Shown: positions 27,364 to 52,362 of the stretch, piece after piece | Layout: each line of letters begins with the position of its first letter | Numbering within the stretch: the stretch's first letter is position 1 | Source of the DNA: Sphingomonas quercus | GTDB taxonomy: Bacteria > Pseudomonadota > Alphaproteobacteria > Sphingomonadales > Sphingomonadaceae | NCBI RefSeq assembly: GCF_018863195.1 | Contig: NZ_JAHKRT010000003.1 | Location: forward strand, 124,001 to 188,000 | Direction: 5' to 3' | Length of the DNA stretch: 64,000 nt | Program-made: the position numbers and the translations under genes | The notes under the pieces: model-generated | What the model was told of the DNA's origin: nothing | Databases searched by the model: none | What the model saw: only the letters and a program-made list of their open reading frames with translations

Positions 27364-27380
27364 TTGATATACTATATGAT
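27364..27380. promoter_or_regulatory. island operator, site 1 (TonB receptor 1)
   Basis: TTGATAT-ACT-ATATGAT: the right half-site is exact, the left 5 of 7. It lies 29-45 bp before the receptor ATG, where it would overlap a promoter or leader. Confidence 0.6.
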
Positions 27381-27430
27381 TTATTGTCATAGCCGCGGGT
27401 CGGGCGACCGTACCGACCCGGGTCTAGCGG

Positions 27431-28378
27431 TCAGCGCGGCTGGAAATTATGCAGGCCACGCGGATAGGGATTGATCGCGACGCGGGTGTCCATCTGGCCG
27501 ACCGGACCACCGGAGCTGGCGCGATGCCAGCGCCCCTGCGCCGCGATCACGATATCGCCGGGGGACGCCGTGAAAAACGGCACACCCTCGATCTGATAGC
27601 TGATATTGCCTTCCATGATGAACCAGAATTCATCATAGCCGAAGTGATAATGTCCGAGATCGCTTGCCGGCGGTGTCGGAACACCGGGGCCGCGAATATT
27701 GTTGACGAACAGATGATCGCCCGCGATGAACGCGCCCGCCCGCTGACCGCCGCCGACGACATCTTTGTAGTAGTCGAGATAGGGTTTGTCGTTCGGCCCA
27801 TAACGCCCGTCCCCGCCGCTCAGCGACACGCGCTGATAGGTGAAGCCCTTGACGTCCTTGGGCTTGTCCGGCGTGGTGGCCAGCGGATAGATGGGCAGGT
27901 CGCCCGCGCCATGCACTTCGAACCACAGGGCCGGTTCGTTGCCGACGCTCTCCAGCGTGAACGGCAGGCGGAACGGAATATGGACCTCGCCCCCCTTCAC
28001 TGCGACGAATGGCTCCTGGCCCTTGATGGTGACGCGGACCTGGCCGCCCCACACGATCAGCGCCGTGGCATTGTCAGGATACATGACCTGGGTGGTGCGC
28101 TGACCGGCGGCAAGCTGATGCCAGTCAGCCTCGAGGTCGCGGTTGCGCACGATGGCCTGCGTCCAGCTGGACTCGCCCTTATGCGCGGCGAGCACGTCGG
28201 ACAGCTTCCACCAGGGGCGGTTTGGCGCATCATAGGGGCGCGGCGGCGTCCGCTTCGGCGACCAGCCCAGCTCCATCGGCGGCCGGCCGGCGGGCGCCGG
28301 CTGTGGCGCCTGGGCCAGCGCCGCGGAAGCGATCGCCGCGCTCGCGCACAAATAGAGAGCGGTTTTCAACGACGCCAT
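27431..28378 (-). CDS. periplasmic double-cupin protein 1
   Basis: The product has 315 residues with a signal peptide (MASLKTALYLCASAAIASAALAQ). Two cupin-like beta-barrels are suggested, about 85-160 (VWGGQVRVTIKGQEPFVAVKGGEVHIP) and 230-300 (HYHFGYDEFWFIMEGNISYQIEG, ASPGDIVIAAQGRWHRA). The second has a full HxH...E...H metal set. I start at the ATG at 28378, preceded by GGAGG; a longer frame from 28426 would run through the operator region. It is probably a metalloenzyme or ligand-binding protein acting on the island's substrate. It is downstream of site 2 and codirectional with receptor 1 (95-bp gap). Confidence 0.78.
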   Translation of the reverse strand: MASLKTALYLCASAAIASAALAQAPQPAPAGRPPMELGWSPKRTPPRPYDAPNRPWWKLSDVLAAHKGESSWTQAIVRNRDLEADWHQLAAGQRTTQVMYPDNATALIVWGGQVRVTIKGQEPFVAVKGGEVHIPFRLPFTLESVGNEPALWFEVHGAGDLPIYPLATTPDKPKDVKGFTYQRVSLSGGDGRYGPNDKPYLDYYKDVVGGGQRAGAFIAGDHLFVNNIRGPGVPTPPASDLGHYHFGYDEFWFIMEGNISYQIEGVPFFTASPGDIVIAAQGRWHRASSGGPVGQMDTRVAINPYPRGLHNFQPR

Positions 28379-28421
28379 GGTTCCTCCCCTGAGAAACGAC
28401 TCTTTTTGAGTCCTATTGGAT

Positions 28422-28438
28422 ATCATATAGGATAGGAT
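28422..28438. promoter_or_regulatory. island operator, site 2 (periplasmic cupin 1)
   Basis: ATCATAT-AGG-ATAGGAT: the left half is exact, the right 6 of 7. Read as a 12-mer (28422-28433) it joins one half of ATCATATATGAT to one half of ATCCTATAGGAT, the two perfect palindromes found elsewhere in the island. It sits between divergent genes. Confidence 0.68.
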
Positions 28439-28470
28439 ATTATGGGCTTAGTCAATTGGATAATCGCGTG

Positions 28471-28950
28471 ATGACGAGGAGACGGTGCGTGAGAGCTGTG
28501 GCCAGGCTGGTTCTGATCGGTGGAATGACCTTAGTTTCAACGGCTTCGGCCCTGGCGCAGGATCAAGGATGCGCGCGTATCGACGATCCCGCGGCGCGCC
28601 TTGCCTGCTATGATCAGCGCGCCGGCAGAGCGGCGGCGAGCCCCGCGCCGAGCCCAGCTTTCGCGACGCCGGCCCCCGCCCGGACCGCGCCCCCGGCAAT
28701 GGCCGAGCCCGCGCGCGAGGCGCCGCGCCGCCGCGCCGATTACGACACCGAGATCGCAACGGTGACCCCGCTCCGCCACGGCTATTACCGGCTCCAGCTG
28801 GCGGACGGCACCGCCTACAACACCACGGTGGTGGCGGCGCCGCCCGCCGTCGGCGACGCCGTCCATGTCCGCCGCTCCCCGCTCGGCACCACCTTCTTCG
28901 ACATGGCCGGACGCAGCCCCTTCGCCGTCAAGCCGGCACGGGCGCGTTGA
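28471..28950 (+). CDS. secreted protein of unknown function
   Basis: The product has 159 residues: an N-terminal signal (ARLVLIGGMTLVSTASALAQ), then CARIDDPAARLACYDQRAG, a short Cys-containing motif also seen near the N-terminus of several secreted or T6SS-associated proteins. An Ala/Pro-rich linker (about 60-95) leads to a small beta domain (TVTPLRHGYYRLQLADG). No enzyme motif is seen. I use the ATG at 28471; GTG at 28468 and TTG at 28456 are also in frame. The end overlaps the convergent MFS gene by 23 bp. It may respond to operator site 2. Confidence 0.6.
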   Translation: MTRRRCVRAVARLVLIGGMTLVSTASALAQDQGCARIDDPAARLACYDQRAGRAAASPAPSPAFATPAPARTAPPAMAEPAREAPRRRADYDTEIATVTPLRHGYYRLQLADGTAYNTTVVAAPPAVGDAVHVRRSPLGTTFFDMAGRSPFAVKPARAR

Positions 28951-30235
28951 GCGTCGGCTCCGGCCGCTCCAGCAGGCGGCCGGGGTCGACCACCGCCCAG
29001 GCCAGCACGCCGGCCAGCACCACCGCCGCGCCCGCGAGGAACGCCGCCGTCCAGCCGAACTGCGCGGCGATGATCGGCGTCAGCGTCGAGGTGACGGCGC
29101 CGCCGATCTGGCATCCCATGTTCATGAAGCCGGAGACGACGCCGCTATGCTCGCCCGAGATATCCGCCGTCACTGACCAGAAGGAACTCTGCGAAAGATA
29201 GATCGCCCCCGCCCCGCCGGCGAGGATCACCACCGCCAGCGGCGCATTGTCGACCATCGAGCCGGCGATGAGGAATATGCCGGTGAGGATGAATGACACC
29301 ACGCCGAGCCCCGACCTCCCCCAATAAGGGCCGTAGCGCGCCGACACCCGATCGTTGACGACGCCGCCGATCAGGCAGCCGAACGTCATGCACAGGAAGG
29401 GCAGCATCGAGAATATCGCGCTCGACTTGACGTCGAGATGCCGCGCCTCGGCGAGATAGATGAAGAACCAGCTGAAGAAAATCCAGATCACATAGCCGAA
29501 CGCCGTATAGCTGATGAACAGCCCCCAGACATTGCGGCTGGACAGGATCGCCCGCCACGGGATCGGCGCCTGCGGCCCGCTCACCGCCGGCGGCAGGCCC
29601 GCCTCGATATGGGCGCGCTCTGCGTCATTGACCGCGGCGTGATCCTGCGGCCTGTCACGGGCCGCCACGAACCACACCAGCGCGGCGACGATGCCGATCA
29701 CCGCACAGACGTAGAAGGAGGCGCGCCAGCCGCCCCACAGGATGATGGCGGTGATCAGTGGCGGCGTGATGCCCGATCCGGCGCCGACCCCGGCGAAGAT
29801 CCAGCCATTGGCCTTCCCGCGCTCCTGCGCGGGGATCCAGCGCGAGACGAACTGGTTGCCGGACGGATAGACCACGGACTCACCCATGCCGAGCGCGAAC
29901 CGGGTCAGCGCCAGCAGCAGCAGGGCGGCGCTGCCCTGTGGCGGGATCAGCGCCGTCGCCGCGGTGAACACGCCCCACCAGACGAGCGCGCCGGTCAGCA
30001 CGATGCGCGGCCCATAGCGCGCCGCCAGCCACCCTGCGGGCACCTGGAACAGCCCGTAGCCGATCAGAAAGGCGCTGAAGACCCAGCCGAGCCTGACCTG
30101 GTCGATGCCATAATCCTGGCGCATCTCGACGCCGGCAATGGAGATGTTGGTGCGATCGAGGAACGCGATCGCGCTGATCAGGAACAACAGGAAGATCAGG
30201 CCGAGCCTGACCCTGGATCGCCGCGATCCGCTCAT
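28928..30235 (-). CDS. MFS transporter 1 (anion:cation symporter type)
   Basis: The product has 435 residues and 12 predicted membrane segments. The first helix FLLFLISAIAFLDRTNISIAG, the loop WLAARYGPR and the central RWIPAQERGKANG match the ACS branch of the major facilitator superfamily, which imports organic and sugar acids (galactonate, hexuronates, phthalate and similar). I start at 30235 (MSGSRRSRVRLG) because GGAGGGG is 6 bp upstream; the longer frame to 30307 crosses the operator. It is divergent from cupin 2 with site 3 between them. Confidence 0.88.
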   Translation of the reverse strand: MSGSRRSRVRLGLIFLLFLISAIAFLDRTNISIAGVEMRQDYGIDQVRLGWVFSAFLIGYGLFQVPAGWLAARYGPRIVLTGALVWWGVFTAATALIPPQGSAALLLLALTRFALGMGESVVYPSGNQFVSRWIPAQERGKANGWIFAGVGAGSGITPPLITAIILWGGWRASFYVCAVIGIVAALVWFVAARDRPQDHAAVNDAERAHIEAGLPPAVSGPQAPIPWRAILSSRNVWGLFISYTAFGYVIWIFFSWFFIYLAEARHLDVKSSAIFSMLPFLCMTFGCLIGGVVNDRVSARYGPYWGRSGLGVVSFILTGIFLIAGSMVDNAPLAVVILAGGAGAIYLSQSSFWSVTADISGEHSGVVSGFMNMGCQIGGAVTSTLTPIIAAQFGWTAAFLAGAAVVLAGVLAWAVVDPGRLLERPEPTLNAPVPA

Positions 30236-30262
30236 CGGTTTCCCCTCCGCATCGCGTCTGAC

Positions 30263-30279
30263 AATATCATATATGATTC
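30263..30279. promoter_or_regulatory. island operator, site 3 (MFS 1 / cupin 2)
   Basis: It contains the perfect 12-bp palindrome ATCATATATGAT at 30268-30279; as a 7-3-7 repeat it reads ACAATAT-CAT-ATATGAT. It sits between two divergent genes and could control both. Confidence 0.75.
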
Positions 30280-30343
30280 TCGATGCGATGCCTGTATGGC
30301 TTGGCAAACAGACAAGGGCAAGTCAGCCCGACAGGAGGGGAAG

Positions 30344-31258
30344 ATGATTCCGAGGGTGCTCGCAGCCGCCTTGGTTGCGCTTCCGATCGCCACCGCCACT
30401 TCGGCGGCCGTGCCGCTCGGCGAGCGCATTGGCCACACCGGCGGGCCGGCGACGCAGCGTACCGCCACCGCCGTTCACGGCGGGCCGGGCTCGATGCAGT
30501 TCGGCGCGCTGCTCGGCGACAAGGCGCTGAGCACAAACTTCATCTTCCTTCACCGCGGCACGATCGCCCCGCACAGCGGCATCGGCCAGCATTTCCATAA
30601 CCAGTGCGAGGAGATGTTCGTCATCCTCGACGGCGAGGCGGAGTTCACCGTCGACGGCCGCACCTCGCGCATCGCCGCCCCGGCCGGCGCGCCCGACCGG
30701 ATGGGCCACGCCCACGGCATCTATAATCCCACCGACAAGCCGGTGCAGTGGATGAACATCAATGTCGGGATGACCAAGATCTACGACAATTTCGACCTGG
30801 GCGATCCCCACACCGGCGCCACGCTCGATCCGATCCCGCAATTCATCACCATGCGGCTCGATCGCAGCCTGTTGCGGCCGGCGGCGGACGCGCTTCCCGG
30901 TGCTGCCGGCGCGGTGCTGTACCGCCGCGCCTTGCAGCCGACGGTGTTCTCGACGCCCTGGTCCTATGTCGATCACATCATGATGGCCCCGGGCGGCACG
31001 CTCGCCGCCCACGCCCAGGCCGAGATGAGCGAAGTCTATTATGTGATGGCCGGCGCCGGCGAGATCACCGTCGGCACCGAAACCGCCGCGATCAAGGCCG
31101 GCGACGCCGTGCCCGTCGATCTCGGCGAGGCGCGGGCGATCCGCCAGACCGGCGCGGCGCCGCTGGAGCTGATGGTCATCGGCGTAGCGCGCGATCTCGA
31201 CGCCAAGGCCCGTTATCGCGCCGCCAACGATCCCCGGGCGCGGGCAGCGCAGCGCTGA
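30344..31258 (+). CDS. periplasmic double-cupin protein 2
   Basis: The product has 304 residues with a signal peptide (MIPRVLAAALVALPIATATSA). The first cupin is about 70-140, with HSGIGQHFHNQCEEMFVILDGEAEF giving an HxH...E set and a later His in GHAHGIYNP. The second is about 205-280 (HIMMAPGGTLAAHAQAEMSEVYYVMAGAGEITV), where the first metal position is weaker. It is bicupin-like but not a copy of cupin 1. AGGAGGGG precedes the ATG at 30344. A long open frame extends 900 bp upstream but is the antisense shadow of the MFS gene. It is followed after 44 bp by the SMP-30 gene, so the two are likely one transcript. Confidence 0.8.
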   Translation: MIPRVLAAALVALPIATATSAAVPLGERIGHTGGPATQRTATAVHGGPGSMQFGALLGDKALSTNFIFLHRGTIAPHSGIGQHFHNQCEEMFVILDGEAEFTVDGRTSRIAAPAGAPDRMGHAHGIYNPTDKPVQWMNINVGMTKIYDNFDLGDPHTGATLDPIPQFITMRLDRSLLRPAADALPGAAGAVLYRRALQPTVFSTPWSYVDHIMMAPGGTLAAHAQAEMSEVYYVMAGAGEITVGTETAAIKAGDAVPVDLGEARAIRQTGAAPLELMVIGVARDLDAKARYRAANDPRARAAQR

Positions 31259-31302: not shown

Positions 31303-32331
31303 ATGTCATCACGCCTTCGGGCTGCCCTGCTCGTCGCCTCTGCCGCGCTGCTGTGCGCCCCGGTCAGCGCGCAGCCCCCCGCCCCGCCGCCGGCTTCGCC
31401 GCCGTCGATCGAGCGGCTCGATCCCGCCCTTGACGCGATCATCGCGCCGAATACTCCCATCGAGCGCGTCGCCACCGGGTTCGAGTTCACCGAGGGCCCG
31501 GTGTGGCATCGCGGGCGACTGTATTTTTCCGACGTCCGGGGCGACAAGCTGCGCACGGTGACCCGCGACGGCAAGGTCGAGCTTATCGCCGACAATGCCG
31601 GCGGCCTCGCCGATCATCCGCCCGGCGCCAGCATCGGCCCCAATGGCATGGTGCCGGCGGCCGATGGCTCGATCCTGATGGTGCAGATGGGCGCGCGGCG
31701 GATCGCCAGGCTCGACGCCCAAGGCCGGATCCAGCCGTTCATCTCCGACTATCAGGGCAAAAGGCTGAACAGCCCCAATGATCTCGTCTACGACAAGGAC
31801 GGCGCGCTGTGGTTCACCGATCCGCCGTTCGGCCTGTTCAACGGCATGGACAAGGATCCGGCCAAGCAATTGCCGTTCAACGCCGTGTTCCGCTACGCCA
31901 ATGGCCGGCTGGAGCCGGTGATCACCGACATGCCGCTGCCCAACGGCATCGGCTTCTCGCCGGACTACAAGACGCTCTACGTCGCCAATTACAGCCGGCC
32001 GGACATGTATATCCGCGCCTATGACGTCGGCGCCGGCGGCAAGCTCTCGGCGCCGCGGGTGGTGGTGCGCTTTCCCGCCAGCGGCGGGCCGGGCGGCGCG
32101 GACGGGCTGAAGATCGACAGCGCCGGCAACATCTGGGCGACGGGCCCGGGCGGCATCCGCATCGTCACGCCGCAGGGCAAGATACTCGGCCAGATCAAGC
32201 TGCCGGAGGTCGCCGCCAACCTCGCCTTCGGCGAGGACGGCCACAGCGTCTACATCACCGCCAGCACCAGCATTTATCGCCTGCACAGCAAGGTGAAGGG
32301 CGAAATTCCGATGTATAGCGAGATGAAATAA
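31303..32331 (+). CDS. SMP-30/gluconolactonase-family secreted protein
   Basis: The product has 342 residues with a signal peptide ending near APVSAQ. This is a six-bladed propeller: FTEGPVWHRGRLYFSD near residue 62 holds the metal-binding Glu, LNSPNDLVYDKDGALWFTDPPFG gives the Asn/Asp ligands, and LPNGIGFSPD and GGADGLKIDSAGNIW complete the set. Family members hydrolyse lactones such as gluconolactone. Periplasmic location next to PQQ dehydrogenases fits hydrolysis of a lactone made by periplasmic oxidation. AGGAG lies 7 bp before the ATG at 31303. Confidence 0.85.
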   Translation: MSSRLRAALLVASAALLCAPVSAQPPAPPPASPPSIERLDPALDAIIAPNTPIERVATGFEFTEGPVWHRGRLYFSDVRGDKLRTVTRDGKVELIADNAGGLADHPPGASIGPNGMVPAADGSILMVQMGARRIARLDAQGRIQPFISDYQGKRLNSPNDLVYDKDGALWFTDPPFGLFNGMDKDPAKQLPFNAVFRYANGRLEPVITDMPLPNGIGFSPDYKTLYVANYSRPDMYIRAYDVGAGGKLSAPRVVVRFPASGGPGGADGLKIDSAGNIWATGPGGIRIVTPQGKILGQIKLPEVAANLAFGEDGHSVYITASTSIYRLHSKVKGEIPMYSEMK

Positions 32332-32342
32332 GCGACGTCGGC

Positions 32343-32367
32343 GCCCGCCGTCTATTTGGCGGCGGGC
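32343..32367. terminator. hairpin at convergent gene ends
   Basis: GCCCGCCG (32343-32350) pairs with CGGCGGGC (32360-32367) around a TCTATTTGG loop, between the SMP-30 stop and the end of the convergent cytochrome gene, whose last codons it overlaps. There is no T-run; function is inferred from placement. Confidence 0.35.
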
Positions 32368-32654
32368 GGCGGCGCGTAGTTCTTCGCAAGATAGTCGGTG
32401 ATCACGCCGATCTCTTCAGGCGACAGCTCGGCGCCCCGCGCCGCCATTTGCTGCACGGTCGCCGCCCAAGCGTCCGGCGTGCGGCGCAACTGGAACACCT
32501 GGCCGACCGGGTGGCAGAAGCCGCAGCGCTCGTTGATCAGCGTCAGGCCGGGGCCTGGCGGCGGTGGCGCCGGAGCGGCATCCTGCGCCACCGCCCCGGC
32601 GCCGATCAGCGCCAGCGCGACCAGCGCCACGGCGATGGGGAGCCTCTCGATCAT
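32352..32654 (-). CDS. small periplasmic c-type cytochrome 1
   Basis: The product has 100 residues: a signal peptide (MIERLPIAVALVALALIGAG), then one haem site CGFCH near residue 44, with a likely distal Met in QMAARGAEL and a C-terminal helix (EEIGVITDYLAKNYAP). It overlaps the PQQ dehydrogenase stop by 4 bp (ATGA), so the two are translated in step. It most likely accepts electrons from that dehydrogenase. Confidence 0.88.
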   Translation of the reverse strand: MIERLPIAVALVALALIGAGAVAQDAAPAPPPPGPGLTLINERCGFCHPVGQVFQLRRTPDAWAATVQQMAARGAELSPEEIGVITDYLAKNYAPPPAAK

Positions 32655-34591
32655 CGTCCTCGTCCTCCTGAAGGCAGCGCATAGGCGACCACCGCGTCGC
32701 TGGTGGTCGGCGCGAATGATGCGCCGCCGGTGGCGACCGCCGCCACCATTTGACGCCCGCCGGCGGCATAGGTCATCGGCGTGGCGCTGACCGGGCCGGG
32801 CAGCTCCGCCTCCCAGAGCAGCTTGCCGGTCCTGGTCTCGAAGGCACGCAGCCTTTTATCCTTGGTGCCGCCGATGAACGTCAGGCCGCTGGCAGTGGTG
32901 ATCGGCCCGCCGGCACTGATCAGGCCGGCATCCTTGAGCGCGGGAATGCCGGTATCGCCGAGCGGGCGTTTCCAGACGATCTTGCCCTTGTTCACGTCGA
33001 CGCCGACCAGCGAGCCCCAGGGCGGCCGATGGCAGGGAAAGCCGGTCTCGCGATCGAGGAAATAGGCGTAGCCGGCCTTCATCCCCCACGTCCCGTCCGG
33101 CTGCTGGGCGAGTTGCTGCGGGCTGGCGAGCTCGTTGACGTTGACGACGTAGATGCCCTGCCTGGCATCGAACGCGCCGCCGCCCCAGTCCACCCCGCCG
33201 AGGCTGCCCGGAAAGAAATTGACGGCGCTGTCCGCGCGCAGCGGCTGAAACATCTTCGAGGCGGAGACATTCAGCTCCTTCGCCACGGCCTCGCACCGCG
33301 CCTTCAGCTCCGGGGTAGCGTCGACGATATCGCCGGGCTCCCAGCTCAGGCGGGTGAGCGGCGGCGGCGTGACCGGCATCGGCTGGGTCGGCCAGGGCTG
33401 CTCGCCCGGCACGTCCGTCTCGGTCGGCACCGGCACTTCGCGCACGTCGTAGATCGGCTTGCCGGTAAGGCGGTCGAGGATGAACATGATCGCCGTCTTG
33501 TTCATCGCCACCAGCGCCGGGATGGTCCGCCCGCCCTTGCGGACGTCGATCAGCGTCAGCACCGGCAGGTCGACATCCCAGATGTCGTGATGGACGGTCT
33601 GGAAATGCCAGAGATACATGCCGGTGCGCGCGTCCACCGCGACAACCGAGTTGGAATAGAGGTTGGCGCCCTTGCGATCGCCACCCCACCGATCGAAGGT
33701 CGGCGCGCCGATCGGCAGATAGGCGATGCCGCTCTTCTCGTCGACCTGCACGAACGTCCAGACATTGGTGCCCGAGCGCTTGTCGGCGCTGCCCGGCTCC
33801 CATGTGTCGGCGCCCTTTTGCCCGGCCTGCGGGATGGTGTGGAATGTCCACACCAGCTTGCCGGTGCGGGCGTCGAACGCGCGCACATCGCCGGCGGCGC
33901 CACGCGTCGGCATCTCCTGCACGCGCGAGCCTGCGATGATCAGGTCCTGGAAAATGGCCGGCGGGCTGGTCATGCCGTAGGGCGCCACGGTGAGGCCGTT
34001 CATCACGTCCGGCGTCTTCAGGCGGACCACGCCATTCTCGCCGAAGCCGGCCGCCGGCTGGCCAGTCGCGGCGTCGAGCGCGATGAGCAGGCCGGAGCGG
34101 GTGCCGAACACGATGCGCGCGCCCACCCCCGCCCCGCCCGGCCAATAGGCGACGCCACGCGTCGACGCCTGATCGCGATTGGGCAGGGCGTATGCCCAGC
34201 GCTCGCGCCCGGTCGCCGCGTCCAGCGCCACCACCCGGCCATAGGGCGTCGGCAGGTACATCACGCCGGCGATGACGATCGGCGTCGCCTCCGAGCCGAT
34301 GAAGCCGGCATTCGACCGCGACGAGGCGCCGTCCGCACCCGCAACGGCGCCTCCCGCGGCCGGCGCTTCGGTGGCGGGGCGCATATGATAGATCCACGCC
34401 TGCCGCAGTCCCGTGACATTGCGCGGGGCGATCTGCGCCAGCGGCGAATAACGCGCGCCGCCGGCATCCCGACCATAGCGCGACCAGTCATCGTCGCCCG
34501 GCGCGGCGACGACGCCCTGCGCGGCCATCGCGGCAATGGAAAACAGCGAAGCCAGCCCGGCGGACCGGCGCAAACGGGATGATGCGCGCAA
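32651..34591 (-). CDS. PQQ-dependent dehydrogenase 1
   Basis: The product has 646 residues: a quinoprotein propeller with a signal peptide (LASLFSIAAMAAQGVVAA) and repeated blade motifs DAATGRERWAY, DARTGKLVWTF and DARTGMYLWHFQTVHHDIWD. The last matches the PQQ-binding W-motif of the glucose/quinate group; there is no attached cytochrome domain. It oxidises an alcohol, sugar or aldehyde in the periplasm. I propose the TTG at 34591 as start because AGGAGGGG lies 8 bp upstream; the longer frame reaches 34675, next to the operator, with a highly basic, unlikely N-terminus. It shares site 4 with the divergent CoA-transferase gene. Confidence 0.87.
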   Translation of the reverse strand: MRASSRLRRSAGLASLFSIAAMAAQGVVAAPGDDDWSRYGRDAGGARYSPLAQIAPRNVTGLRQAWIYHMRPATEAPAAGGAVAGADGASSRSNAGFIGSEATPIVIAGVMYLPTPYGRVVALDAATGRERWAYALPNRDQASTRGVAYWPGGAGVGARIVFGTRSGLLIALDAATGQPAAGFGENGVVRLKTPDVMNGLTVAPYGMTSPPAIFQDLIIAGSRVQEMPTRGAAGDVRAFDARTGKLVWTFHTIPQAGQKGADTWEPGSADKRSGTNVWTFVQVDEKSGIAYLPIGAPTFDRWGGDRKGANLYSNSVVAVDARTGMYLWHFQTVHHDIWDVDLPVLTLIDVRKGGRTIPALVAMNKTAIMFILDRLTGKPIYDVREVPVPTETDVPGEQPWPTQPMPVTPPPLTRLSWEPGDIVDATPELKARCEAVAKELNVSASKMFQPLRADSAVNFFPGSLGGVDWGGGAFDARQGIYVVNVNELASPQQLAQQPDGTWGMKAGYAYFLDRETGFPCHRPPWGSLVGVDVNKGKIVWKRPLGDTGIPALKDAGLISAGGPITTASGLTFIGGTKDKRLRAFETRTGKLLWEAELPGPVSATPMTYAAGGRQMVAAVATGGASFAPTTSDAVVAYALPSGGRGR

Positions 34592-34677: not shown

Positions 34678-34694
34678 ATCATATACAATATGAT
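34678..34694. promoter_or_regulatory. island operator, site 4 (PQQ-DH 1 / CoA-transferase)
   Basis: ATCATAT-ACA-ATATGAT: a perfect 7-3-7 inverted repeat, in the divergent region between the dehydrogenase and CaiB genes. Confidence 0.75.
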
Positions 34695-34755: not shown

Positions 34756-35940
34756 ATGGCGACGCTGCCGCTGGCTGGGATCCGTGTACTTGATATCTCG
34801 CAGGTCATGGCGGGCCCGTTCTGCTGCATGCTGTTGGGGGACATGGGCGCCGACGTGATCAAGATCGAGCCGCCGAAGACCGGCGATTCGACGCGGCACT
34901 CGATGGGCTTCCGTCTCAAGGGCGAGGACAGCCCCGGCTTCCTCGCGCTCAACCGCAACAAGCGCAGCATCGCCCTCAACCTCAAGGACGAGAAGGATCG
35001 CGCAGTCCTCTACGCGCTGGTCCGGAGTGCGGACGTACTGGTCGAGAATGCCCGCCCCGGCGTCGCCGCGCGGCTGGGCATCTCCTATGACATATTGTCC
35101 GGGATCAACCCGCGGCTGATCTATGCGAGCATCTCCGGCTTCGGCCAGACGGGTCCCTGGTCCCAGCGCCCCGGCTTCGATCTGATCGCGCAGGCGATGT
35201 CGGGGGTGCTCAGCGCCAACGGCTTTCCCGGCATGGAGCCGGCGAAGAACAGCATCGCCGTCGCCGATCTCGGCGCGGGCCTGTTCTCGATCTACGGCAT
35301 CCTTTCGGCGCTGATCGGGCGGGAGAAGAGCGGCAAGGGGCAATATATCGACGCCTCGCTGCTCGAGGCAGCGCTCGGCCTGTCGGTGTGGGAGACGGCC
35401 GAGCTGTGGGGCACCGGCCGCGCACCGACGCCGATCGGCTCGGCCAACCGCATGTCCGCGCCCTATCAGGCGGTGCTCGCCTCGGACGGCTATTTCGTCA
35501 TCGGCGCCGCCAATCAGGGCCTGTGGCTGACTTTCCTCCAGGTGCTCGGCCGCCCCGAACTGCAGGACGATCCGCGCTACTCTAGCAACGCGGTGCGTGT
35601 CACCAATCTCGGCGCGCTGATGGCCGATCTCGCCCCGACCTTCCTCACCCGCACCCGCCAGGAATGGATCGACGCGCTGCTCGCCGCGGGCGTGCCGGCC
35701 GCGCCGATCCTCGATTATGGCGAGGCAGTGGCCAGCGAACAGGCCGTCGCGCGCGAGATGGTGATGCAGGTGCCGCATCCGGTGGAAGGCTCGTTCAAGG
35801 CGCTCGGCTTTCCGGTGAAGATGCGCGGCACGCCGCAGGAGGTACGCCTGCCGCCGCCGCTGCTCGACGAGCATGGTGACGCCATCCGCAGCGAATTGAT
35901 AGAACAGGGATTTCTTGCCCCGGAAGCGGAGTCCGCCTGA
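34756..35940 (+). CDS. CaiB/BaiF-family CoA-transferase
   Basis: The product has 394 residues, cytoplasmic. The N-terminus LAGIRVLDISQVMAGPFCCMLLGDMGADVIKIE, then NKRSIALNLKDE, ENARPGVAARLGI and PGFDLIAQAMSG are the classical family III CoA-transferase landmarks. The catalytic Asp is expected in NSIAVADLGAGLFS. It moves CoA from a donor acyl-CoA to a carboxylic acid, activating it for degradation. It overlaps the enoyl-CoA hydratase gene by one base (TGATG). It indicates that a carboxylate reaches the cytoplasm and is activated here. Confidence 0.92.
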   Translation: MATLPLAGIRVLDISQVMAGPFCCMLLGDMGADVIKIEPPKTGDSTRHSMGFRLKGEDSPGFLALNRNKRSIALNLKDEKDRAVLYALVRSADVLVENARPGVAARLGISYDILSGINPRLIYASISGFGQTGPWSQRPGFDLIAQAMSGVLSANGFPGMEPAKNSIAVADLGAGLFSIYGILSALIGREKSGKGQYIDASLLEAALGLSVWETAELWGTGRAPTPIGSANRMSAPYQAVLASDGYFVIGAANQGLWLTFLQVLGRPELQDDPRYSSNAVRVTNLGALMADLAPTFLTRTRQEWIDALLAAGVPAAPILDYGEAVASEQAVAREMVMQVPHPVEGSFKALGFPVKMRGTPQEVRLPPPLLDEHGDAIRSELIEQGFLAPEAESA

Positions 35941-37733: not shown

Positions 37734-37741
37734 CCGCCCGC

Positions 37742-43313: not shown

Positions 43314-43344
43314 GGCCGGCGAAATCAAATTCGCCGGCCTTTTT
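43314..43344. terminator. intrinsic terminator after the halogenase gene
   Basis: GGCCGGCGAA (43314-43323) pairs perfectly with TTCGCCGGCC (43330-43339) around a 6-base loop, followed by TTTTT. It ends the plus-strand receptor/halogenase unit and may also serve the convergent cytochrome gene, whose stop it touches. Confidence 0.88.
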
Positions 43345-45910: not shown

Positions 45911-47395
45911 TTACCAGCTCACCGCGATATACTTGGCTTCGCAGTAATCGAGCATGCCGTGATGGGCCCCTTCCCGGCCGAGTCCGCTCTGCTTGACGCC
46001 GCCGAACGGCGCCGCCGCGTCGGAGACGAGGCCGCGGTTCAGCGCGATCATGCCGCACTCGATGCGTTCGGAAATCTGCAGGCCCTTCTTGAGGTCGCCG
46101 GTATAGACGTAGGCGGCCAGGCCATATTCGGTGGCGTTGGCGAGCGCCACAGCCTCGTCCGCATCGTCGAACGGGATCACCGCCGCCACCGGACCGAACA
46201 CCTCGGTCTCGAGGATCTTCGAGCCGGGCTGGACATTGGCGATCACCGACGGCGGATAGAAGAAGCCCGCGCCGTCCGGCGTCTTGCAGCCGAGCCGCAC
46301 CTCGGCGCCGCGGCCAAGCGCGTCGGATACCAGCTCCTCGATCTTGTCGATCGACTGGCGATTGATCATCGCCCCGCACTGGGTGGCGCCGTCCACGCCG
46401 GGGCCGAGGCGCAGCGCGCCCATCCGCTCGACCAGCTTGGCGACGAACGCGTCGTGAATGCCGCGCTGGACATAGAAGCGGTTGGCCGCGGTGCAGGCCT
46501 CGCCGGCATTGCGCATCTTGGCGATCATCGCGCCCTCGATCGCCTCGTCGAGATCAGCGTCGTCGAGGACCAGGAACGGCGCGTTGCCGCCCAGCTCCAT
46601 GGATGAGCTGATGACCTGGTCCGCCGCCTCGCGCAGCAGGATGCGGCCGACCTCGGTCGACCCGGTGAAGGACAGCTTGCGCACGCGCGGATCGTGCAGG
46701 ATGGCGCTGCATACCGGGCCCGGGGCGCTGGTGTTGATGACGTTGACGACGCCGGCCGGCACGCCCGCGCGGCGCATGATCTCGGCGACGGCGAGCGCGG
46801 TCAGCGGGGTTTCCTCGGCCGGCTTGACGATGCATGTGCAGCCGGCCGCGAGCGCCGGGGCGATCTTGCGCGTTGCCATCGCCGCCGGGAAATTCCAAGG
46901 CGTGATCAGCAGCGCGATGCCGATCGGCTGATATTGCACCATGATGCGGTTGGCGCCGGACGGCGCGATGCTGATCTCGCCGTTGATGCGCACCGCCTCT
47001 TCGGCATACCAGCGGAAGAATTCGGCGGCATAGGCCACCTCGCCGCGCGCGTCGGACAGCGCCTTGCCGTTCTCCAGCGAGATGAGCTGCGCCAGCCATT
47101 CCTGCTCGGCCATCATCGCGTGGAAGCAGGCGAGCAGGATCTCCGCGCGCTTGCGCGGCGGCGTCGCCGCCCATGCCGCGGCCGCGGCGGCGGCGGCGTC
47201 GACGGCGGCTATGCCCTCGGCCGGGCTGGCATCGGCGACCGAGGTCAACACCGCCTCGGTGGCGGGATTGAGGATGTCGATGCGCTCGCCGCTGGCGGCG
47301 GGCCGCCAGGCGTCGCCGATCAGCAGGTCGGTGGGAATGGGAAACGGCCCGGACTGGCCATCGGTGGTCGCGCAGGTGAAGCTGTTGCTGGTCAT
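45911..47395 (-). CDS. aldehyde dehydrogenase, succinate-semialdehyde type
   Basis: The product has 494 residues. NAD(P)-dependent ALDH with ITPWNFPAAMATRKIAPALA, KPAEETPLTALA, FTGSTEVGRIL, the general base in MELGGNAPF and catalytic Cys in GEACTAANRF. The C-terminal GGVKQSGLGREGAHHG is typical of GabD-like enzymes, converting succinate semialdehyde or a similar omega-oxo acid to the diacid. The start is ambiguous: ATG at 47395 is used; a TTG at 47422 overlaps the upstream stop. It follows the iron alcohol dehydrogenase directly, giving an alcohol-aldehyde-acid sequence. Confidence 0.88.
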   Translation of the reverse strand: MTSNSFTCATTDGQSGPFPIPTDLLIGDAWRPAASGERIDILNPATEAVLTSVADASPAEGIAAVDAAAAAAAAWAATPPRKRAEILLACFHAMMAEQEWLAQLISLENGKALSDARGEVAYAAEFFRWYAEEAVRINGEISIAPSGANRIMVQYQPIGIALLITPWNFPAAMATRKIAPALAAGCTCIVKPAEETPLTALAVAEIMRRAGVPAGVVNVINTSAPGPVCSAILHDPRVRKLSFTGSTEVGRILLREAADQVISSSMELGGNAPFLVLDDADLDEAIEGAMIAKMRNAGEACTAANRFYVQRGIHDAFVAKLVERMGALRLGPGVDGATQCGAMINRQSIDKIEELVSDALGRGAEVRLGCKTPDGAGFFYPPSVIANVQPGSKILETEVFGPVAAVIPFDDADEAVALANATEYGLAAYVYTGDLKKGLQISERIECGMIALNRGLVSDAAAPFGGVKQSGLGREGAHHGMLDYCEAKYIAVSW

Positions 47396-47418
47396 GGGAA
47401 GGGCCTGACTTGGGGAGC

Positions 47419-48654
47419 TCAAATGGAATGCAGCGCCGCCCGGTCGCCGGCGAAGGCAGCCCGGGTGATGCTCTGCATAGCCGACAGATCGAGAGGGCGG
47501 GGATTGTTCTTGACCAGCCGCGCCGAGTTCAACGCAGTCTTGGCGACATAATCCTGTTGATCGGCCTCGAGGCCGAGCTCGGCGAGAGAGCCGGGAATGT
47601 GCACCGCGGCCAGCAAGGTCGCCACCGCGTCGATGAACGCCTGCGAGGTTTCCTCCACCGGTCCGGCCGGCAGGCCGATCGCCCGCGCCAGCTCGGCGAA
47701 AGCGGGGGCGCAGGCCGGGCGGTTGAACTGCATGACATAAGGTAGCAGCGTCGCCACGCCATCGCCATGCGCAGTGTGGGTCAGATTGCCGACGGGATAT
47801 TGCAGCGCATGCGCCGCCGCCGTCCCCGCCGTGCCGAACGCGCAGCCGGCCGCCAGCGCCGCCAGCATCAGCCCCTCGCGCGCCTCGATGTCGTCGCCGT
47901 CGCGATAGGCGCGTTCCAGGAAGCGGAAGATGTTGACCACGGCGAGCTGTGCGAACTGGTCCGACAGCAGGTTCTTGCCGACGAAGACGTGCTGCTCGGT
48001 GAGCAGCGGGTCGGCCGGCCGCGCCAGCGTGGTATAGGCCTCCACCGCATGGGTCAGCGCGTCCGCGCCTGAGCAGGCGGTGAGATAGGGCGGGCAGGTC
48101 ACAGTCAGATCGGGATCGCAGATCGCGACCATCGGCACCAGATGCGGGCTGGCGATGCCGACCTTCGCGCCGCGTTCCTCGTCGGCGACCACCGCGACCG
48201 GCGTCACTTCCGATCCGGTGCCCGCCGTGGTCGGCAACGCGATCAGCGGCAGCACCGGCCCCGGTACCGCGAACTCGCCATAATAGGAGCGGATATCGCC
48301 GCCATGGGCCAGCATCACCGCGACCACCTTGGCCATGTCCATCGAGCTGCCGCCGCCGACGCCGATCACCAGATCGGCAGCGAAGCCCCGCACCTCGGCG
48401 ACGCAGGCCTCGATCGAGGCAAGCGGCAGATCAGGGATGGTCTGGTCGAAGACATGGGTCTCCAGGCCATGCGCCTTGAGATCGGCGAGCATCGCTGCGA
48501 ACTCGGGCTGGGCGCTCTGCCGCGGATCCGTGCATAGCAGGGCACGCTTGCCGCGGCTGCTGGCGACGGAGCCGAGCGCGTGGCGCTGGCCGCGTCCGAA
48601 CAGGACGGAGCGCGGCAGCCGCAGCGCGCCGAACGCGGGGACCGACCCGCTCAC
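47419..48654 (-). CDS. iron-containing alcohol dehydrogenase
   Basis: The product has 411 residues, group III Fe-ADH. The cofactor region GVGGGSSMDMAKVVAV, LPTTAGTGSEVTPVAVV, and the iron ligands in SGADALTHAVEAYTT and YPVGNLTHTAHGDGVATLL are complete. Activities in this family include 4-hydroxybutyrate, 1,3-propanediol and related dehydrogenases; with the adjacent succinate-semialdehyde-type ALDH, oxidation of an omega-hydroxy acid such as 4-hydroxybutyrate is a reasonable guess. The GTG start at 48654 overlaps the stop of a 14-codon ORF (GTGA). Confidence 0.9.
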   Translation of the reverse strand: MSGSVPAFGALRLPRSVLFGRGQRHALGSVASSRGKRALLCTDPRQSAQPEFAAMLADLKAHGLETHVFDQTIPDLPLASIEACVAEVRGFAADLVIGVGGGSSMDMAKVVAVMLAHGGDIRSYYGEFAVPGPVLPLIALPTTAGTGSEVTPVAVVADEERGAKVGIASPHLVPMVAICDPDLTVTCPPYLTACSGADALTHAVEAYTTLARPADPLLTEQHVFVGKNLLSDQFAQLAVVNIFRFLERAYRDGDDIEAREGLMLAALAAGCAFGTAGTAAAHALQYPVGNLTHTAHGDGVATLLPYVMQFNRPACAPAFAELARAIGLPAGPVEETSQAFIDAVATLLAAVHIPGSLAELGLEADQQDYVAKTALNSARLVKNNPRPLDLSAMQSITRAAFAGDRAALHSI

Positions 48655-48754: not shown

Positions 48755-50077
48755 TCATGCGCCCGCTTCGTCGCGATAGAAGCGGCGGGACGGATCGACG
48801 AACAGCATCAGGACGCCAGCCACCGCCGCCAATGCCGCAATCACCGCGAACGCCGAGCCCCAGCCATGATCCGTGGCGAGCCGCGCCGTCACCGCGACCG
48901 CGATGGCGGCGCCGATGTTGCCCGCGGTGTTCATCACCGCCGAGATCGAGCCGGCGAACTCGCCGCCGACATCCAGCGTCACCGCCCATGACACGCCGAC
49001 CGTCAGCTCCAGCGCGAACAGCGCCAGCGCGAACCAGCAGATCGACACCACCGGGTCATCGACCCACGCCGCCAGCGTCACCGCGCCTGCCGAAATCCAG
49101 AAGCCGGTCACCGACACGATGCGCCGCGCGAAGGCGAGCTTGCCCGTCTTCTTGAGGATCTCGTCCGACACCACGCCGCCGGTGATGTCCCCGACCAGGC
49201 CAGCGAGGAACGGCACGCTGGCGTAAAATCCCATCTGCGCGAGATCGATGCCGCGCGCCGCGTTCAGATATTTTGGGAACCAGCTCAGGAACACGCCGAT
49301 GTCATAGGCGTAGCAGAAATACATCGCGCCCAGCACATACATCTGCCGGTTGGACAGGATCTGCCCCCACGGCACCTTGCGCTTGCCCTTCTTGAAGATG
49401 CCGAGCGCGCCATTGATTCGCGCCAGCTCCGCCTCGTTGACGCCGGCATGATCGGCGGGCGAATTGCGGTAATAGCGATACCACAGCAGCGCCCAGATGA
49501 TGCCGACCGCCGCGAAAATCAGGAACGGCAGCCGCCAGGTCAGCGCCGAGACGCCGACCAGCCCGACGACGATGATCGGGGTCAGCGTGCTGCCCAGCCG
49601 CGAACCGGCATGGGTGGCGCCTTGCGCCAGCGCGCGTTCGGACGGCAGCATCCAGCGCGACAGGGCGCGGTTGGCGATCGGAAAGGCGCCCGCCTCGCCC
49701 ATGCCGATCAGGAACAGGCACACGCCCATCGACATCGCCGACCAGGTAAGCGAGGTCAGCGCCGTGAACACCGACCACCAGATGACGACGCAGGTCATCG
49801 CCAGCCTCGGCCCGACCTTGTCGCCGAACCAGCCGCCCGGAATCTGGAAGGCGGCATAGGCGATGCTGTAGCTGAACAGCACCCAGCCCATGGTGATCGT
49901 CGACAGGCCGAGGTCGCGCTCGATGAACGGCGCCGACACCGACAGCAGCACGCGGTCGATATAGGTGATGAAATAGGCCGCGATGACGAACGCCAGCACC
50001 TTGTATCGGGTGCGGCTGGGCGCAAGTCCGGCCAGCGCGGCGGCCGCGCGTGCGGCGGGCGGGGCGGTGTCGCTCAC
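48755..50077 (-). CDS. MFS transporter 2 (anion:cation symporter type)
   Basis: The product has 440 residues and 12 membrane segments. YKVLAFVIAAYFITYIDRVLLSVSAPF, GWFGDKVGPRL and SRWMLPSERALAQG match the ACS branch of MFS carriers for organic acids. It is a second member distinct from MFS 1, so the island may import two related acids or substrate and breakdown product. The GTG start overlaps the amidohydrolase stop by 4 bp; 59 bp separates it from the 14-codon ORF downstream. Confidence 0.88.
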   Translation of the reverse strand: MSDTAPPAARAAAALAGLAPSRTRYKVLAFVIAAYFITYIDRVLLSVSAPFIERDLGLSTITMGWVLFSYSIAYAAFQIPGGWFGDKVGPRLAMTCVVIWWSVFTALTSLTWSAMSMGVCLFLIGMGEAGAFPIANRALSRWMLPSERALAQGATHAGSRLGSTLTPIIVVGLVGVSALTWRLPFLIFAAVGIIWALLWYRYYRNSPADHAGVNEAELARINGALGIFKKGKRKVPWGQILSNRQMYVLGAMYFCYAYDIGVFLSWFPKYLNAARGIDLAQMGFYASVPFLAGLVGDITGGVVSDEILKKTGKLAFARRIVSVTGFWISAGAVTLAAWVDDPVVSICWFALALFALELTVGVSWAVTLDVGGEFAGSISAVMNTAGNIGAAIAVAVTARLATDHGWGSAFAVIAALAAVAGVLMLFVDPSRRFYRDEAGA

Positions 50078-51471
50078 GGACGCGGGCCGCAGGCATTGGC
50101 CGGCCGGCCGGTGCAGGTCTGCCAGATCGTCGGCACCTTGTTGCCGCCGACATAGACCGCGTCGATCGCCCGGGTGTTGCGGATGTCGGCGGTCGGATCA
50201 CGATCCAGCACGAGCAGGTCCGCCCATTTGCCGGGGGCGATCGTGCCGACGTCCTTGGCGCCCATGAACTCGGCATTGGCGCTGGTCGCTGCCGTCAGCG
50301 CCTGAAGCGGAGTCACACCGGCCTGGACCATCAGTTCCAGCTCCCAATGGGCGAAATAGCCCGGGAAGCGTGCGCTCGGCCCGCTGTCCGTGCCCATGCC
50401 ATAGCGGATCCCGGCCTTGGCCTCGCGGCCGAAATTGGCCAGCGCCATTTGCAGCGTCGGCCCATATTTGGGGAAGTTCGGCGCCGCGCCGAGCTTCGCC
50501 GCCCGCTCCGGGCTGGCCAGCTCGGTGAGCACCGCCGGCGTCACGGCGCGCGAGAAGAAGGGATCGTCGAGGAATGGCAGCGTCTTATAGGTGAACGAGG
50601 CCTCGCGGCTCAGCGTCGCCGCCATCTGCCATACCCCGCCGGCCTTCATCTGCGCGATCAGCGCATCGTCCACCGGCTTGTCGCGTACCGAATGGGCGAA
50701 GGCATCGATGCCCTCGCGCGCCAGCTCGGCGGCATTATCATAGTAGAAGATGTGGGCGACGGTCTTCTTGCCGTCCTTGTGCGCCTCGTCGATGATGGCG
50801 GTGCTGATCGGCGGCGGCATGCGCAGCGGCAGCTGGCCGAACTCGTCATCGACCCACAGCTTGATGAGGTCCGCGCCCTTCGCCGCCTGGGCGTCGACCA
50901 TCGCGCGCGCCTCTTCGGGCGTCGCCACGGACTGCTCCAGCCCGGGCACGCCGCCATAGCTGCCCTTGTACACCACGCCGCGCCCGACCGTGTAGACCCG
51001 CGCCATCTGCGGCCGGCCGTCGCGCAGCTTCTGGATCGGGAAGATCAGGTCCTGCTCGGTGCCCAATGTCTGCACCGTCGTCACACCATAGGCGGCATAG
51101 GTCTTGAGCTGCTGCTCGATATTTTCCGTCGTCTGGTACTTCAGATCCTGGGTGATGCCATTGACCAGACCGAGATGGACGTGGCTGTCGATCAGCCCCG
51201 GCATGATGAACTTGCCGTCGAGCGGCTGCACCGTGGCGCCCTCGGGCACCTTGAGCTGCGCGACCGGGCCGACCCATTTGATCCGGCCGCCGGCCATGAT
51301 CAGCGCCTGCCCGGCGACGGGCGCGCGGCCGGTGCCGTCGATCAGCGTGAAATCACGCAGCACCAGCGTGTCGGACGGAGTCGCCTTGTCGGCGGACGGC
51401 GCGCAGGCGGCCGTGGCGAGCAGGACGGCAAGCCCGCAGCTTGCCCATCCCGCCGATCGTGCAGCTCCCAT
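50074..51471 (-). CDS. lipoprotein amidohydrolase (imidazolonepropionase/prolidase-like)
   Basis: The product has 465 residues. The signal ends in the lipobox LLATAAC, so it is likely membrane-anchored in the periplasm. Amidohydrolase metal motifs are present: IDSHVHLG, Lys in DLIKLWVDDE as a possible carbamylated bridge, His in TVAHIFYYD and DAFAHSVRD, and Asp in MGTDSG. Relatives cleave cyclic amides, dipeptides, lactones or aryl-organophosphate esters. It is first gene of the minus-strand operon amidohydrolase, MFS 2, micro-ORF, Fe-ADH, ALDH, with two palindromic sites upstream. Confidence 0.87.
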   Translation of the reverse strand: MGAARSAGWASCGLAVLLATAACAPSADKATPSDTLVLRDFTLIDGTGRAPVAGQALIMAGGRIKWVGPVAQLKVPEGATVQPLDGKFIMPGLIDSHVHLGLVNGITQDLKYQTTENIEQQLKTYAAYGVTTVQTLGTEQDLIFPIQKLRDGRPQMARVYTVGRGVVYKGSYGGVPGLEQSVATPEEARAMVDAQAAKGADLIKLWVDDEFGQLPLRMPPPISTAIIDEAHKDGKKTVAHIFYYDNAAELAREGIDAFAHSVRDKPVDDALIAQMKAGGVWQMAATLSREASFTYKTLPFLDDPFFSRAVTPAVLTELASPERAAKLGAAPNFPKYGPTLQMALANFGREAKAGIRYGMGTDSGPSARFPGYFAHWELELMVQAGVTPLQALTAATSANAEFMGAKDVGTIAPGKWADLLVLDRDPTADIRNTRAIDAVYVGGNKVPTIWQTCTGRPANACGPRP

Positions 51472-51492
51472 GGAAATCCCCTCCAGACCTTG

Positions 51493-51509
51493 TTCATATC
51501 ATATATGAT
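51493..51509. promoter_or_regulatory. island operator, site 7 (amidohydrolase operon, proximal)
   Basis: It holds the perfect palindrome ATCATATATGAT at 51498-51509; as 7-3-7 it reads TTCATAT-CAT-ATATGAT (13 of 14 matches). It lies 22 bp upstream of the amidohydrolase ATG. Confidence 0.78.
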
Positions 51510-51563
51510 CCGGACTGCAGGCGTAAGACGTGGCCCAGTGTCCGTCAAGGGACTTCACGTATG

Positions 51564-51575
51564 ATCCTATAGGAT
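51564..51575. promoter_or_regulatory. island operator variant, site 8 (amidohydrolase operon, distal)
   Basis: ATCCTATAGGAT is a perfect 12-bp palindrome differing from ATCATATATGAT only by a symmetrical change in each half. Its centre is 66 bp from the centre of site 7. Two sites of one class in the same promoter could support cooperative binding or looping. Confidence 0.55.
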
Positions 51576-51619
51576 AAGCGCGGCGCGCGGCACCGCCGCG
51601 GCGGGGCGCGACGGCGGTC

Positions 51620-52321
51620 CTAGGCCGACCCGCGATCCATGCGCCGCTGGGAGGAGATGAGGTGCTCGCGCACCGCCTTCTCGGCGGCCGCTGGATCGCG
51701 CGCCAGCAGCGCGGCAATGATGCGGCGATGCTCCTGCGCCACGACCTTGGGCTGCATCTTGCTCTGATAGAGCGAGCGGAAAATCTGGAGATGAGCGTGC
51801 AACCGCTCGATCGTCTCCTCGATCAGGCGGTTGCCGCTGCCGCGCGCGATGATGCGGTGAAACTCGGTATCGGCATTGGCGAATCGGGCGACGCCGCGGC
51901 CGCTGCTCTCCACCTTTTCGTCCATGTCCGCCTGCACCTGGCGCAGCGTGGTGAGGTCATCGTCGTCCATGCGCTCGGCGGCGCGCGCGGCGGCATAGGG
52001 CTCGATCAGCAGGCGCAGCGTGTAGAGGTCGTGCACCTCCTCCGATGACATTTGCGGGCTGGCGCGGTAGCCGACGTTGGTCACCTTGTAGACCAGCTTC
52101 TCCGCCTCGAGCTGGCTCAGCGCCTCCCGGATCGGCGTCTGCGAGATGCCGAGATGGCGGGCAACCGCATCGATGCGGATGCGCTCGCCGGGCGCGATCT
52201 TCACCGTCATCAGCATCGAGAGGAGATATTCGTAAGCGCTCTCGACGAGAGTTAGCCCATTTGCAGAAGGACTTGCCGGGCCTTGCTTGGCGGGAGGAGG
52301 GACGTCACGAGCGTTCGACAT
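51620..52321 (-). CDS. GntR-family regulator with FCD effector domain
   Basis: The product has 233 residues. The winged helix (about 25-90) has LSMLMTVKIAPGERIRIDAVARHLGISQTPIREALSQLEAEKLV, with the recognition helix at SQTPIREAL. The FCD all-helical domain (about 100-225) has LYTLRLLIEPYAAARAAERM, then FHRIIARGSGNRLIEE, EHRRIIAALLARDP and HLISSQ, with the Asp/His pattern that binds metal and carboxylate ligands. It is the only regulator in the 24-52 kb island, so it is the best candidate to bind the repeated palindromes, including the one before its own gene. ATG 52321 is chosen for AGGTGA 11 bp upstream; GTG 52336 is possible. Confidence 0.9.
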   Translation of the reverse strand: MSNARDVPPPAKQGPASPSANGLTLVESAYEYLLSMLMTVKIAPGERIRIDAVARHLGISQTPIREALSQLEAEKLVYKVTNVGYRASPQMSSEEVHDLYTLRLLIEPYAAARAAERMDDDDLTTLRQVQADMDEKVESSGRGVARFANADTEFHRIIARGSGNRLIEETIERLHAHLQIFRSLYQSKMQPKVVAQEHRRIIAALLARDPAAAEKAVREHLISSQRRMDRGSA

Positions 52322-52350
52322 GCGTGAGATGCTCACCTTATTTTTGGCAA

Positions 52351-52362
52351 ATTATATATGAT
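52351..52362. promoter_or_regulatory. island operator, site 9 (GntR autoregulation)
   Basis: ATTATATATGAT differs from the perfect palindrome at one base. It is 30-41 bp upstream of the regulator's ATG, consistent with autorepression. The rest of the gap to 52566 shows no gene. Confidence 0.62.

Follow-up and report, generated by a model that had tools for sequence, protein, structure and literature searches.

An AT-rich palindrome at the promoters of a Sphingomonas quercus gene island as the predicted operator of a GntR/FCD regulator

Introduction

In a 64,000-nucleotide stretch of the Sphingomonas quercus genome (hereafter the window; C9:124001-188000, on contig NZ_JAHKRT010000003.1), an AT-rich palindrome recurs at promoters across an island of genes that includes the gene of a GntR-type regulator with an FCD domain. 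Which protein reads the palindrome, and how far does its regulon reach? A first-pass annotation, made from the letters of the window, had proposed that this regulator controls about 20 genes as one unit. Comparison with the rest of the genome (G000; 3,636,518 bases in 15 contigs) and with related genomes indicates that the palindrome very probably serves as operator for the FCD-type GntR protein whose gene lies at 51620-52321, and that this protein would act as an autoregulated local repressor of the island and of hemicellulose genes.

Results

Operator sites of the island

The island contains one type of 17-bp site, WTCATAT-MNK-ATATGAW. The pattern ATCATAT-N3-ATATGAT is perfect at 34678 and 38597; the sites at 28422 and 51493 each deviate from it at one base, those at 27364 and 30261 at two, and that at 52346 at three. 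The shorter palindrome ATCATATATGAT is exact at 30266 and 51498 and has one mismatch at 52351, 28422 and 38602, the last lying inside the 38597 site. A division into two motif types, even and odd, was rejected, the even sites at 30266 and 51498 being windows inside the odd 17-mers ACAATATCATATATGAT at 30261 and TTCATATCATATATGAT at 51493. All sites named in the first-pass annotation were found again at the mismatch levels claimed, with one correction: the exact palindrome placed there at 30268 exists, but starts at 30266.

A position weight matrix made exclusively from the seven sites of the window gave them scores of 21.1-31.7. By pattern and matrix alike, the putative operators are TTGATATACTATATGAT (27364-27380), 28 bases upstream of the start (27335) of the TonB-dependent receptor gene TBDR1; ATCATATAGGATAGGAT (28422-28438), accompanied by weaker overlapping boxes from 28410, before a cupin gene; ACAATATCATATATGAT (30261-30277) in the divergent promoter of a major facilitator superfamily (MFS) transporter gene, MFS1, and a bicupin gene; the perfect ATCATATACAATATGAT (34678-34694) in the divergent promoter of a pyrroloquinoline quinone (PQQ)-dependent dehydrogenase gene, PQQ1, and a CaiB-type CoA-transferase gene; the perfect ATCATATCAGATATGAT (38597-38613) in the divergent SapC/TBDR2 promoter; TTCATATCATATATGAT (51493-51509), 21 bases upstream of the start of an amidohydrolase gene; and GGCAAATTATATATGAT (52346-52362), with the lowest score of all (21.1), which precedes the ATG (52321) of the regulator by 24 bases and bears out the claim of a site before the regulator's own gene. 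A symmetrical variant noted earlier at 51564-51575, ATCCTATAGGAT, is indeed present, but its fit to the 17-mer is poor (8.5-11.1); it was not accepted as a full operator and may at most provide accessory half-sites.

As had been stated, the sites lie between genes, all seven being 21-141 bases upstream of likely start codons: 21-44 bases at TBDR1, the cupin, MFS1, amidohydrolase and regulator genes, and 61-141 bases at the remaining units. Together they head units, whose limits were drawn from gene adjacency, that hold 20 genes (24372-52321). With up to three mismatches ATCATAT-N3-ATATGAT occurs nine times in the window; of these matches, one within a gene (27632) and one that overlaps the 28422 site (28410) were not counted as sites. 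Shuffles that keep the dinucleotide composition gave expectations of 0.65 and 0.51 matches, and in the run with 0.51 none of 100 shuffles reached nine.

Sites elsewhere in the genome

The reversed pattern served as control in the counts over the whole genome. With up to three mismatches ATCATAT-N3-ATATGAT was found in 42 places, versus 6 for the control, and WTCATAT-N3-ATATGAW (WTCATATNNNATATGAW) with up to two mismatches in 12, versus none. Six of these 12 are in the island, from which set the site at 52346, with its three mismatches, is missing, and ten of the 12 are in promoters as judged by the positions of open reading frames (ORFs). Those outside the island precede an MFS and GH43 gene pair (C9:204555), a glucuronoyl esterase gene (C8:541734, 29 bases before ATG 16779 of locus L024), a GH3 gene (C8:565622) and a beta-propeller lactonase-like gene (C14:112689); the matches at C9:481206 and C12:100205 are both within ORFs and were taken as chance. 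Weaker sites on C8 are in the divergent promoter of a TonB receptor and a SapC gene (20.2) and before an arabinofuranosidase gene (10.7), and the same block carries a GH67 and an acetyl-xylan-esterase-like gene. The positions of these sites support a predicted regulon that exceeds the island, including the glucuronoyl esterase and GH3 genes and, by the weaker sites, the arabinofuranosidase gene and the receptor/SapC pair on C8, and the MFS-GH43 pair on C9. At these two places outside the island the motif thus precedes glucuronoxylan genes and a beta-xylosidase unit. Of the proposal that one regulator governs about 20 genes, the gene count stands (20 genes in seven units); the limit to the island does not, given the further sites on C8, C9 and C14.

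Conservation of regulator and sites

The regulator was found at E <= 1e-40 in one of 118 genomes, its own, and in none of nine genus mates. The motif is not equally frequent elsewhere: with up to one mismatch it occurs seven times in the S. quercus genome and 0-1 times in the genus mates. Across the order, 14 of 396 searched genomes, S. quercus included, had the regulator at E <= 1e-25. Seven relatives with regulators 53-73% identical formed the footprint set, namely G351, G118, G365 and the Sphingobium genomes G432-G435; of the five loci from the genome collection, four are the Sphingobium ones (70-72%) and the fifth, L086 (25% identity), was left out. The island is largely syntenic in all seven, with rearrangement in G365.

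No score of 16 or more was reached in any of 1,500 random 360-base windows, or at any position of 188,842 bases of control DNA, promoters among them, taken from genus mates that lack the regulator. At orthologous promoters sites were regularly present: in 7/7 relatives at the PQQ1/CoA-transferase promoter, always with the same 17 bases; in 7/7 at MFS1/bicupin (19.2-30.6); in 7/7 at the regulator (15.2-22.5, six of them at 16 or above); in 6/7 at the amidohydrolase gene; and, where the gene was found, in 4/5 at TBDR1 and 4/6 at the cupin gene. Upstream regions of genes inside the runs yielded a single match of at least 16 (16.8, at the iron alcohol dehydrogenase gene of G433). The 38597 site is not shared, the homologous SapC/TonB pair of G351 scoring 4.5. 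The island with all six orthologous sites is also carried by pSRL1, a mobilizable plasmid of Sphingobium indicum B90A from sugarcane rhizosphere. These footprints in seven genomes and one plasmid support the assignment of the motif to the window GntR/FCD protein and to orthologous promoters.

The sites might instead be AT-rich elements of promoters, or palindromes that arose by chance and share no reader, as their location in the promoters of a GC-rich genome would allow. The dinucleotide shuffles, the reversed-pattern controls and the control bases all contradict chance palindromes. Moreover, the PQQ1/CaiB site is identical over its 17 bases in eight genomes, the central ACA included, while the ungapped flanks are 47% and 33% identical, that is, not invariant. 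We give this explanation practically no credence.

Outside the island, a one-mismatch site, TTCATAGCACATATGAT, was seen in the four Sphingobium genomes (G432 C15:229251, G433 C3:241939, G434 C74:151728 and G435 C75:10722).

Which protein reads the motif

That the protein at 51620-52321 is the only regulator in the island, as had been claimed, holds among the ORFs scanned with Pfam, which did not comprise every small ORF. Because the genome has ten other FCD regulators, the argument of an only candidate is good for the island, and a genome-wide test was needed. Of the upstream regions of the 11 FCD regulator genes, that of the window regulator alone scores above 16 (21.1), and the next best, that of L036, scores 15.7. 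A strict palindrome search before the FCD genes returned nothing useful.

The most serious competitor is the FCD regulator inside the xylan cluster of C8 (C8:570658-571530, or C8:570781-571164 as placed in the count of FCD regulators), which adjoins the C8 sites in a cluster that has several of those outside the island; it could read the operators alone or together with the window regulator, the latter being local or idle. Its recognition helix differs, however (SRPSLREGL versus SQTPIREAL), and its own promoter scores -0.5. No site of at least 15 was found within 58.8 kb and 40 kb around its orthologues (66-67%) in G002 and G009, and it was not found (at least 35% identity, E <= 1e-15) in the G351 stretches, where GH67, GH3, the island, the sites and a window-type regulator co-occur. 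We consider this competitor improbable. A non-FCD regulator encoded elsewhere in the genome, of which the GntR gene would be a mere target, appears less probable still. In favour of such a reader, the site before the regulator gene has the lowest score of the seven, and binding by the GntR protein is a prediction from sequence; against it, the motif accompanies the regulator gene in 7/7 relatives and on the plasmid and recurs at the promoter of a Sinorhizobium meliloti homologue amid other neighbours, and the MNK centre and the 3-base spacing match FadR-subfamily operators (PMC4494728).

The assignment to the window regulator was followed into distant homologues, of which nine, 44-46% identical, had upstream DNA (L072-L078, L161 and L162), seven of them being scored with the matrix. 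Two of these seven have a site of at least 16: the 44% homologue on S. meliloti pSymA, which has different neighbours (L161; ATCATATACGATATCGT, 24.4), and L162 (16.4). L073 has a perfect palindrome of different spacing, and L074 a 3-mismatch site on the far side of the gene. At L161 several overlapping operator-like matches (9856-9891) lie between an Ldh-family oxidoreductase gene and the regulator homologue. In Agrobacterium pusense the homologue adjoins iron alcohol dehydrogenase and succinate-semialdehyde dehydrogenase genes.

Another FCD regulator (C12:94549) stands beside a cluster paralogous to the island (C12:90001-106000, L119), with identities of 71% for CoA-transferase, 63% for PQQ2, 58% for MFS2, 53% for enoyl-CoA hydratase, 51% for the cytochrome-like protein, 46% for cupin and 41% for the TonB receptor. 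The single match of at least 15 in this cluster is inside the receptor ORF.

The regulator protein and operator specificity

The regulator has an N-terminal GntR winged helix (PF00392, 43.3 bits, cut-off 27) and a C-terminal FCD domain (PF07729, 106.4 bits, cut-off 24.3). Asp151, His155, His198 and His220, which we take to be the FCD metal ligands, are invariant in eight regulator sequences, and because of this invariance a metal site and a carboxylate inducer are suggested. The recognition helix, SQTPIREAL, belongs to a segment SQTP[IV]REALSQLEA common to the regulator and 7/7 close orthologues. In all of these Gln61 takes the place of the recognition-helix Arg; the other ten FCD proteins of the genome have Arg (8), Lys (1) and Gln (1) at this position.

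FadR-subfamily operators are described as TKGT-N3-ACMA or NyGTM-N0-1-KACNy, with the recognition-helix Arg (FadR Arg45) contacting G (PMC4494728). The canonical TnGT-n-ACnA was found upstream of 2/10 other FCD genes of S. quercus and inside the start of a third. All seven window sites, by contrast, have an AT/AT core instead of the subfamily's GT and AC boxes, which stand 2-3 bases apart. Among 30 distinct sites scoring at least 19 the form is AT-MNK-AT, with M and K at about 97%; the shared AT is partly circular, as the matrix favours it; for the MNK centre this applies less, since at those positions there is variation in six of the seven sites from which the matrix was made. Gln is reported to prefer A, and NanR and BioR are FadR-subfamily members with other operator motifs (both PMC4494728, section 10); because their motifs also differ, the FCD membership of our regulator stands despite an operator that is not GT/AC. 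In an ungapped register with a table of the same source, A:T at the next position is also compatible with Pro63 and, though not significantly, with Asn82. The operator is thus probably the FadR-subfamily consensus with G:C changed to A:T, and the exchange of the reading Arg for Gln probably the specificity switch.

Several observations weigh against the window regulator as the reader, or against the switch. In the ungapped register Asp51 would predict G:C at the next operator position, and an FCD protein of the same genome, L034, also has Gln in the helix and no site. Four of the seven relatives are Sphingobium and hence not independent. In the stretches tested there is no site upstream of the G365 amidohydrolase, the G434 TBDR1, or the G118 and G365 cupin genes. 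The upstream regions of L072-L076 score -3.8 to 9.8, which leaves five of the seven scored SQTP homologues without a site of at least 16, and L077 and L078 have no match at up to three mismatches. Scattered matches with at most one mismatch, up to six per genome, also occur in other families of the order (G088, 6 with 3 for the control; G097, 6 with 0), where a search at E <= 1e-40 did not find the regulator. A consensus scan of three promoters found no sigma-70-like promoter against whose -10 and -35 elements the sites could be placed, which leaves the repressor role a putative one.

Link to hemicellulose and possible substrate

In G351 a stretch of about 54 kb contains the operator-bearing island, a GH3, a halogenase/TonB/SapC/cupin set and GH67, which directly follows the regulator, with an operator between the two. 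In S. quercus the counterparts of these genes are divided over C9 and C8, again with the same operators, and the operator is present at other promoters of the GH67-bearing xylan cluster. A link of the island to hemicellulose is supported by these arrangements in two genomes. In G432 the site nearest to GH67 is at a ThuA-like gene about 2 kb beyond it, and a weaker site (20.4) follows at 12 kb. In the stretches fetched, the GH67 loci of G118, G433, G434 and G435 have no site of at least 16, and GH67 was not found in G365.

UxaC is present in 8/8 island genomes. 4-O-methylglucuronate as substrate of the island is weakened by four Sphingobium GH67 loci that have no operator at the GH67 promoter; in three of these four genomes UxaC is within 10 kb of the GH67 locus. 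We hold this substrate to be a weak guess.

Beyond the C8 xylan cluster (C8:577164-583992, L026) are paralogues of MFS1 (67%) and PQQ1 (65%), a glycerate kinase gene, and a gene that shares 64-65% identity with the bicupin orthologues found in other genomes.

Genes of the island

Most products were assigned with Pfam, and several starts were set from the sequence. The minus strand encodes TBDR1 (24372-27335), the cupin protein (27431-28378, with its start at ATG 28378 after the ribosome-site-like GGGGAGGA) and MFS1 (28928-30235, start at ATG 30235). Divergent from MFS1, on the plus strand, are the bicupin protein (30344-31258) and an SMP-30/gluconolactonase-like protein (31304-32331). They are followed on the minus strand by a small protein with a CxxCH motif (32352-32654), in whose place the S. 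indicum plasmid has a gene annotated as cytochrome c, and by PQQ1 (32651-34588; start approximate, TTG near 34588). The CoA-transferase of family III (34756-35940) and an enoyl-CoA hydratase family protein (35940-36722) are on the plus strand, and a cupin_8 protein (36726-37817) and SapC (37742-38488) on the minus strand. TBDR2 (38755-41688, plus), which shares 59% identity with the xylan-cluster receptor on C8, precedes a tryptophan-halogenase-like flavoprotein (41747-43288, plus).

The rest is on the minus strand: a second small protein (43343-43783), again with a gene annotated as cytochrome c in its place on the plasmid; PQQ2 (43780-45861); an aldehyde dehydrogenase (45911-47422) that comes closest, at scores below cut-off, to models of succinate-semialdehyde dehydrogenase; an iron-containing alcohol dehydrogenase (47419-48654); MFS2 (48755-50077); the amidohydrolase family protein that heads a six-gene run (50074-51471); and the regulator (51620-52321), the proposed reader of all operators. 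With NCBIfam, among the matches listed for ten island proteins, one enoyl-CoA hydratase subfamily model alone was above its cut-off.

Just past TBDR1 is a manganese catalase gene (22288-23199), outside the regulon by operator positions. A very large minus-strand ORF (60434-63997) has matches beyond the window (C9:186001-189101, L022), in stretches 552 bases apart and about 80% identical to it, and this suggests a giant repetitive protein.

Discussion

The proposed mechanism is that a winged-helix dimer would bind each palindrome and, from these promoter-placed sites, block RNA polymerase. Repression is favoured because it is the habit of the family and because sites lie 21-44 bases before the start codons of TBDR1, the cupin, MFS1, amidohydrolase and regulator genes and 61-141 bases before those of the other units. 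A small carboxylate that occupies the FCD domain's Asp/His3 metal site would release the regulator from DNA; the regulator would repress its own gene, and the island would be switched on together with the hemicellulose genes. Gln61 in place of Arg would read A:T where ordinary FadR-subfamily operators have G:C.

A wider proposal is more doubtful than not and is offered tentatively: an orthogonal FadR-type branch, in sphingomonads and on rhizobial plasmids (44%), in which Arg to Gln switched the core from GT-MNK-AC to AT-MNK-AT, and which might wire a PQQ/CoA-transferase pathway, plasmid-borne in one instance, to glucuronoxylan breakdown, possibly as a route for 4-O-methylglucuronate or another lignin-hemicellulose fragment.

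In this way a motif seen by eye becomes a testable regulon with a named reader: one block of about 20 genes that process sugars and alcohols, to which at least four promoters elsewhere are added (those on C8, C9 and C14 given above). It also leads to a catabolic pathway not yet characterised, which lies on a plasmid in S. indicum and is tied to hemicellulose genes in two genomes. By title and abstract, none of the open-licence papers listed deals with this regulon or motif, which may be in print elsewhere.

The regulator is of a known kind, FCD GntR, and it is the operator variant that appears to be new. Among solved structures the best match is an FCD regulator entered as 'Probable transcriptional regulator' (7XP0/7XP1, E 7.6e-26). 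With the FadR subfamily, as described in PMC4494728, the system shares the GntR winged helix and FCD domain, an A/T-rich palindrome, the 3-base MNK centre, and the divergent and autoregulatory placement of operators; it differs in having AT/AT and Gln61 where the subfamily has GT/AC and Arg45. AlkR of Pseudomonas aeruginosa (VanR group) is similar as an FCD repressor whose short palindrome lies 27-40 bases ahead of the start codon, whereas its ATTGTCAGACAAT retains the GT/AC core and its targets are alkane genes (PMC12042122). Atu1419 of Agrobacterium fabrum, also of the VanR group, likewise has a metal site and, as an FCD regulator, governs a catabolic region; its operator, the palindromic ATGTATACAT, is read through an Arg45-G3 contact, and according to PMC7797058 binding was abolished when the operator G:C was changed to A:T. 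The window operator naturally has this A:T form, and the pair may thus represent a natural case of changed operator specificity in the GntR family, in which the substitution that disabled an Arg regulator in the laboratory would be the wild-type operator of a Gln regulator.

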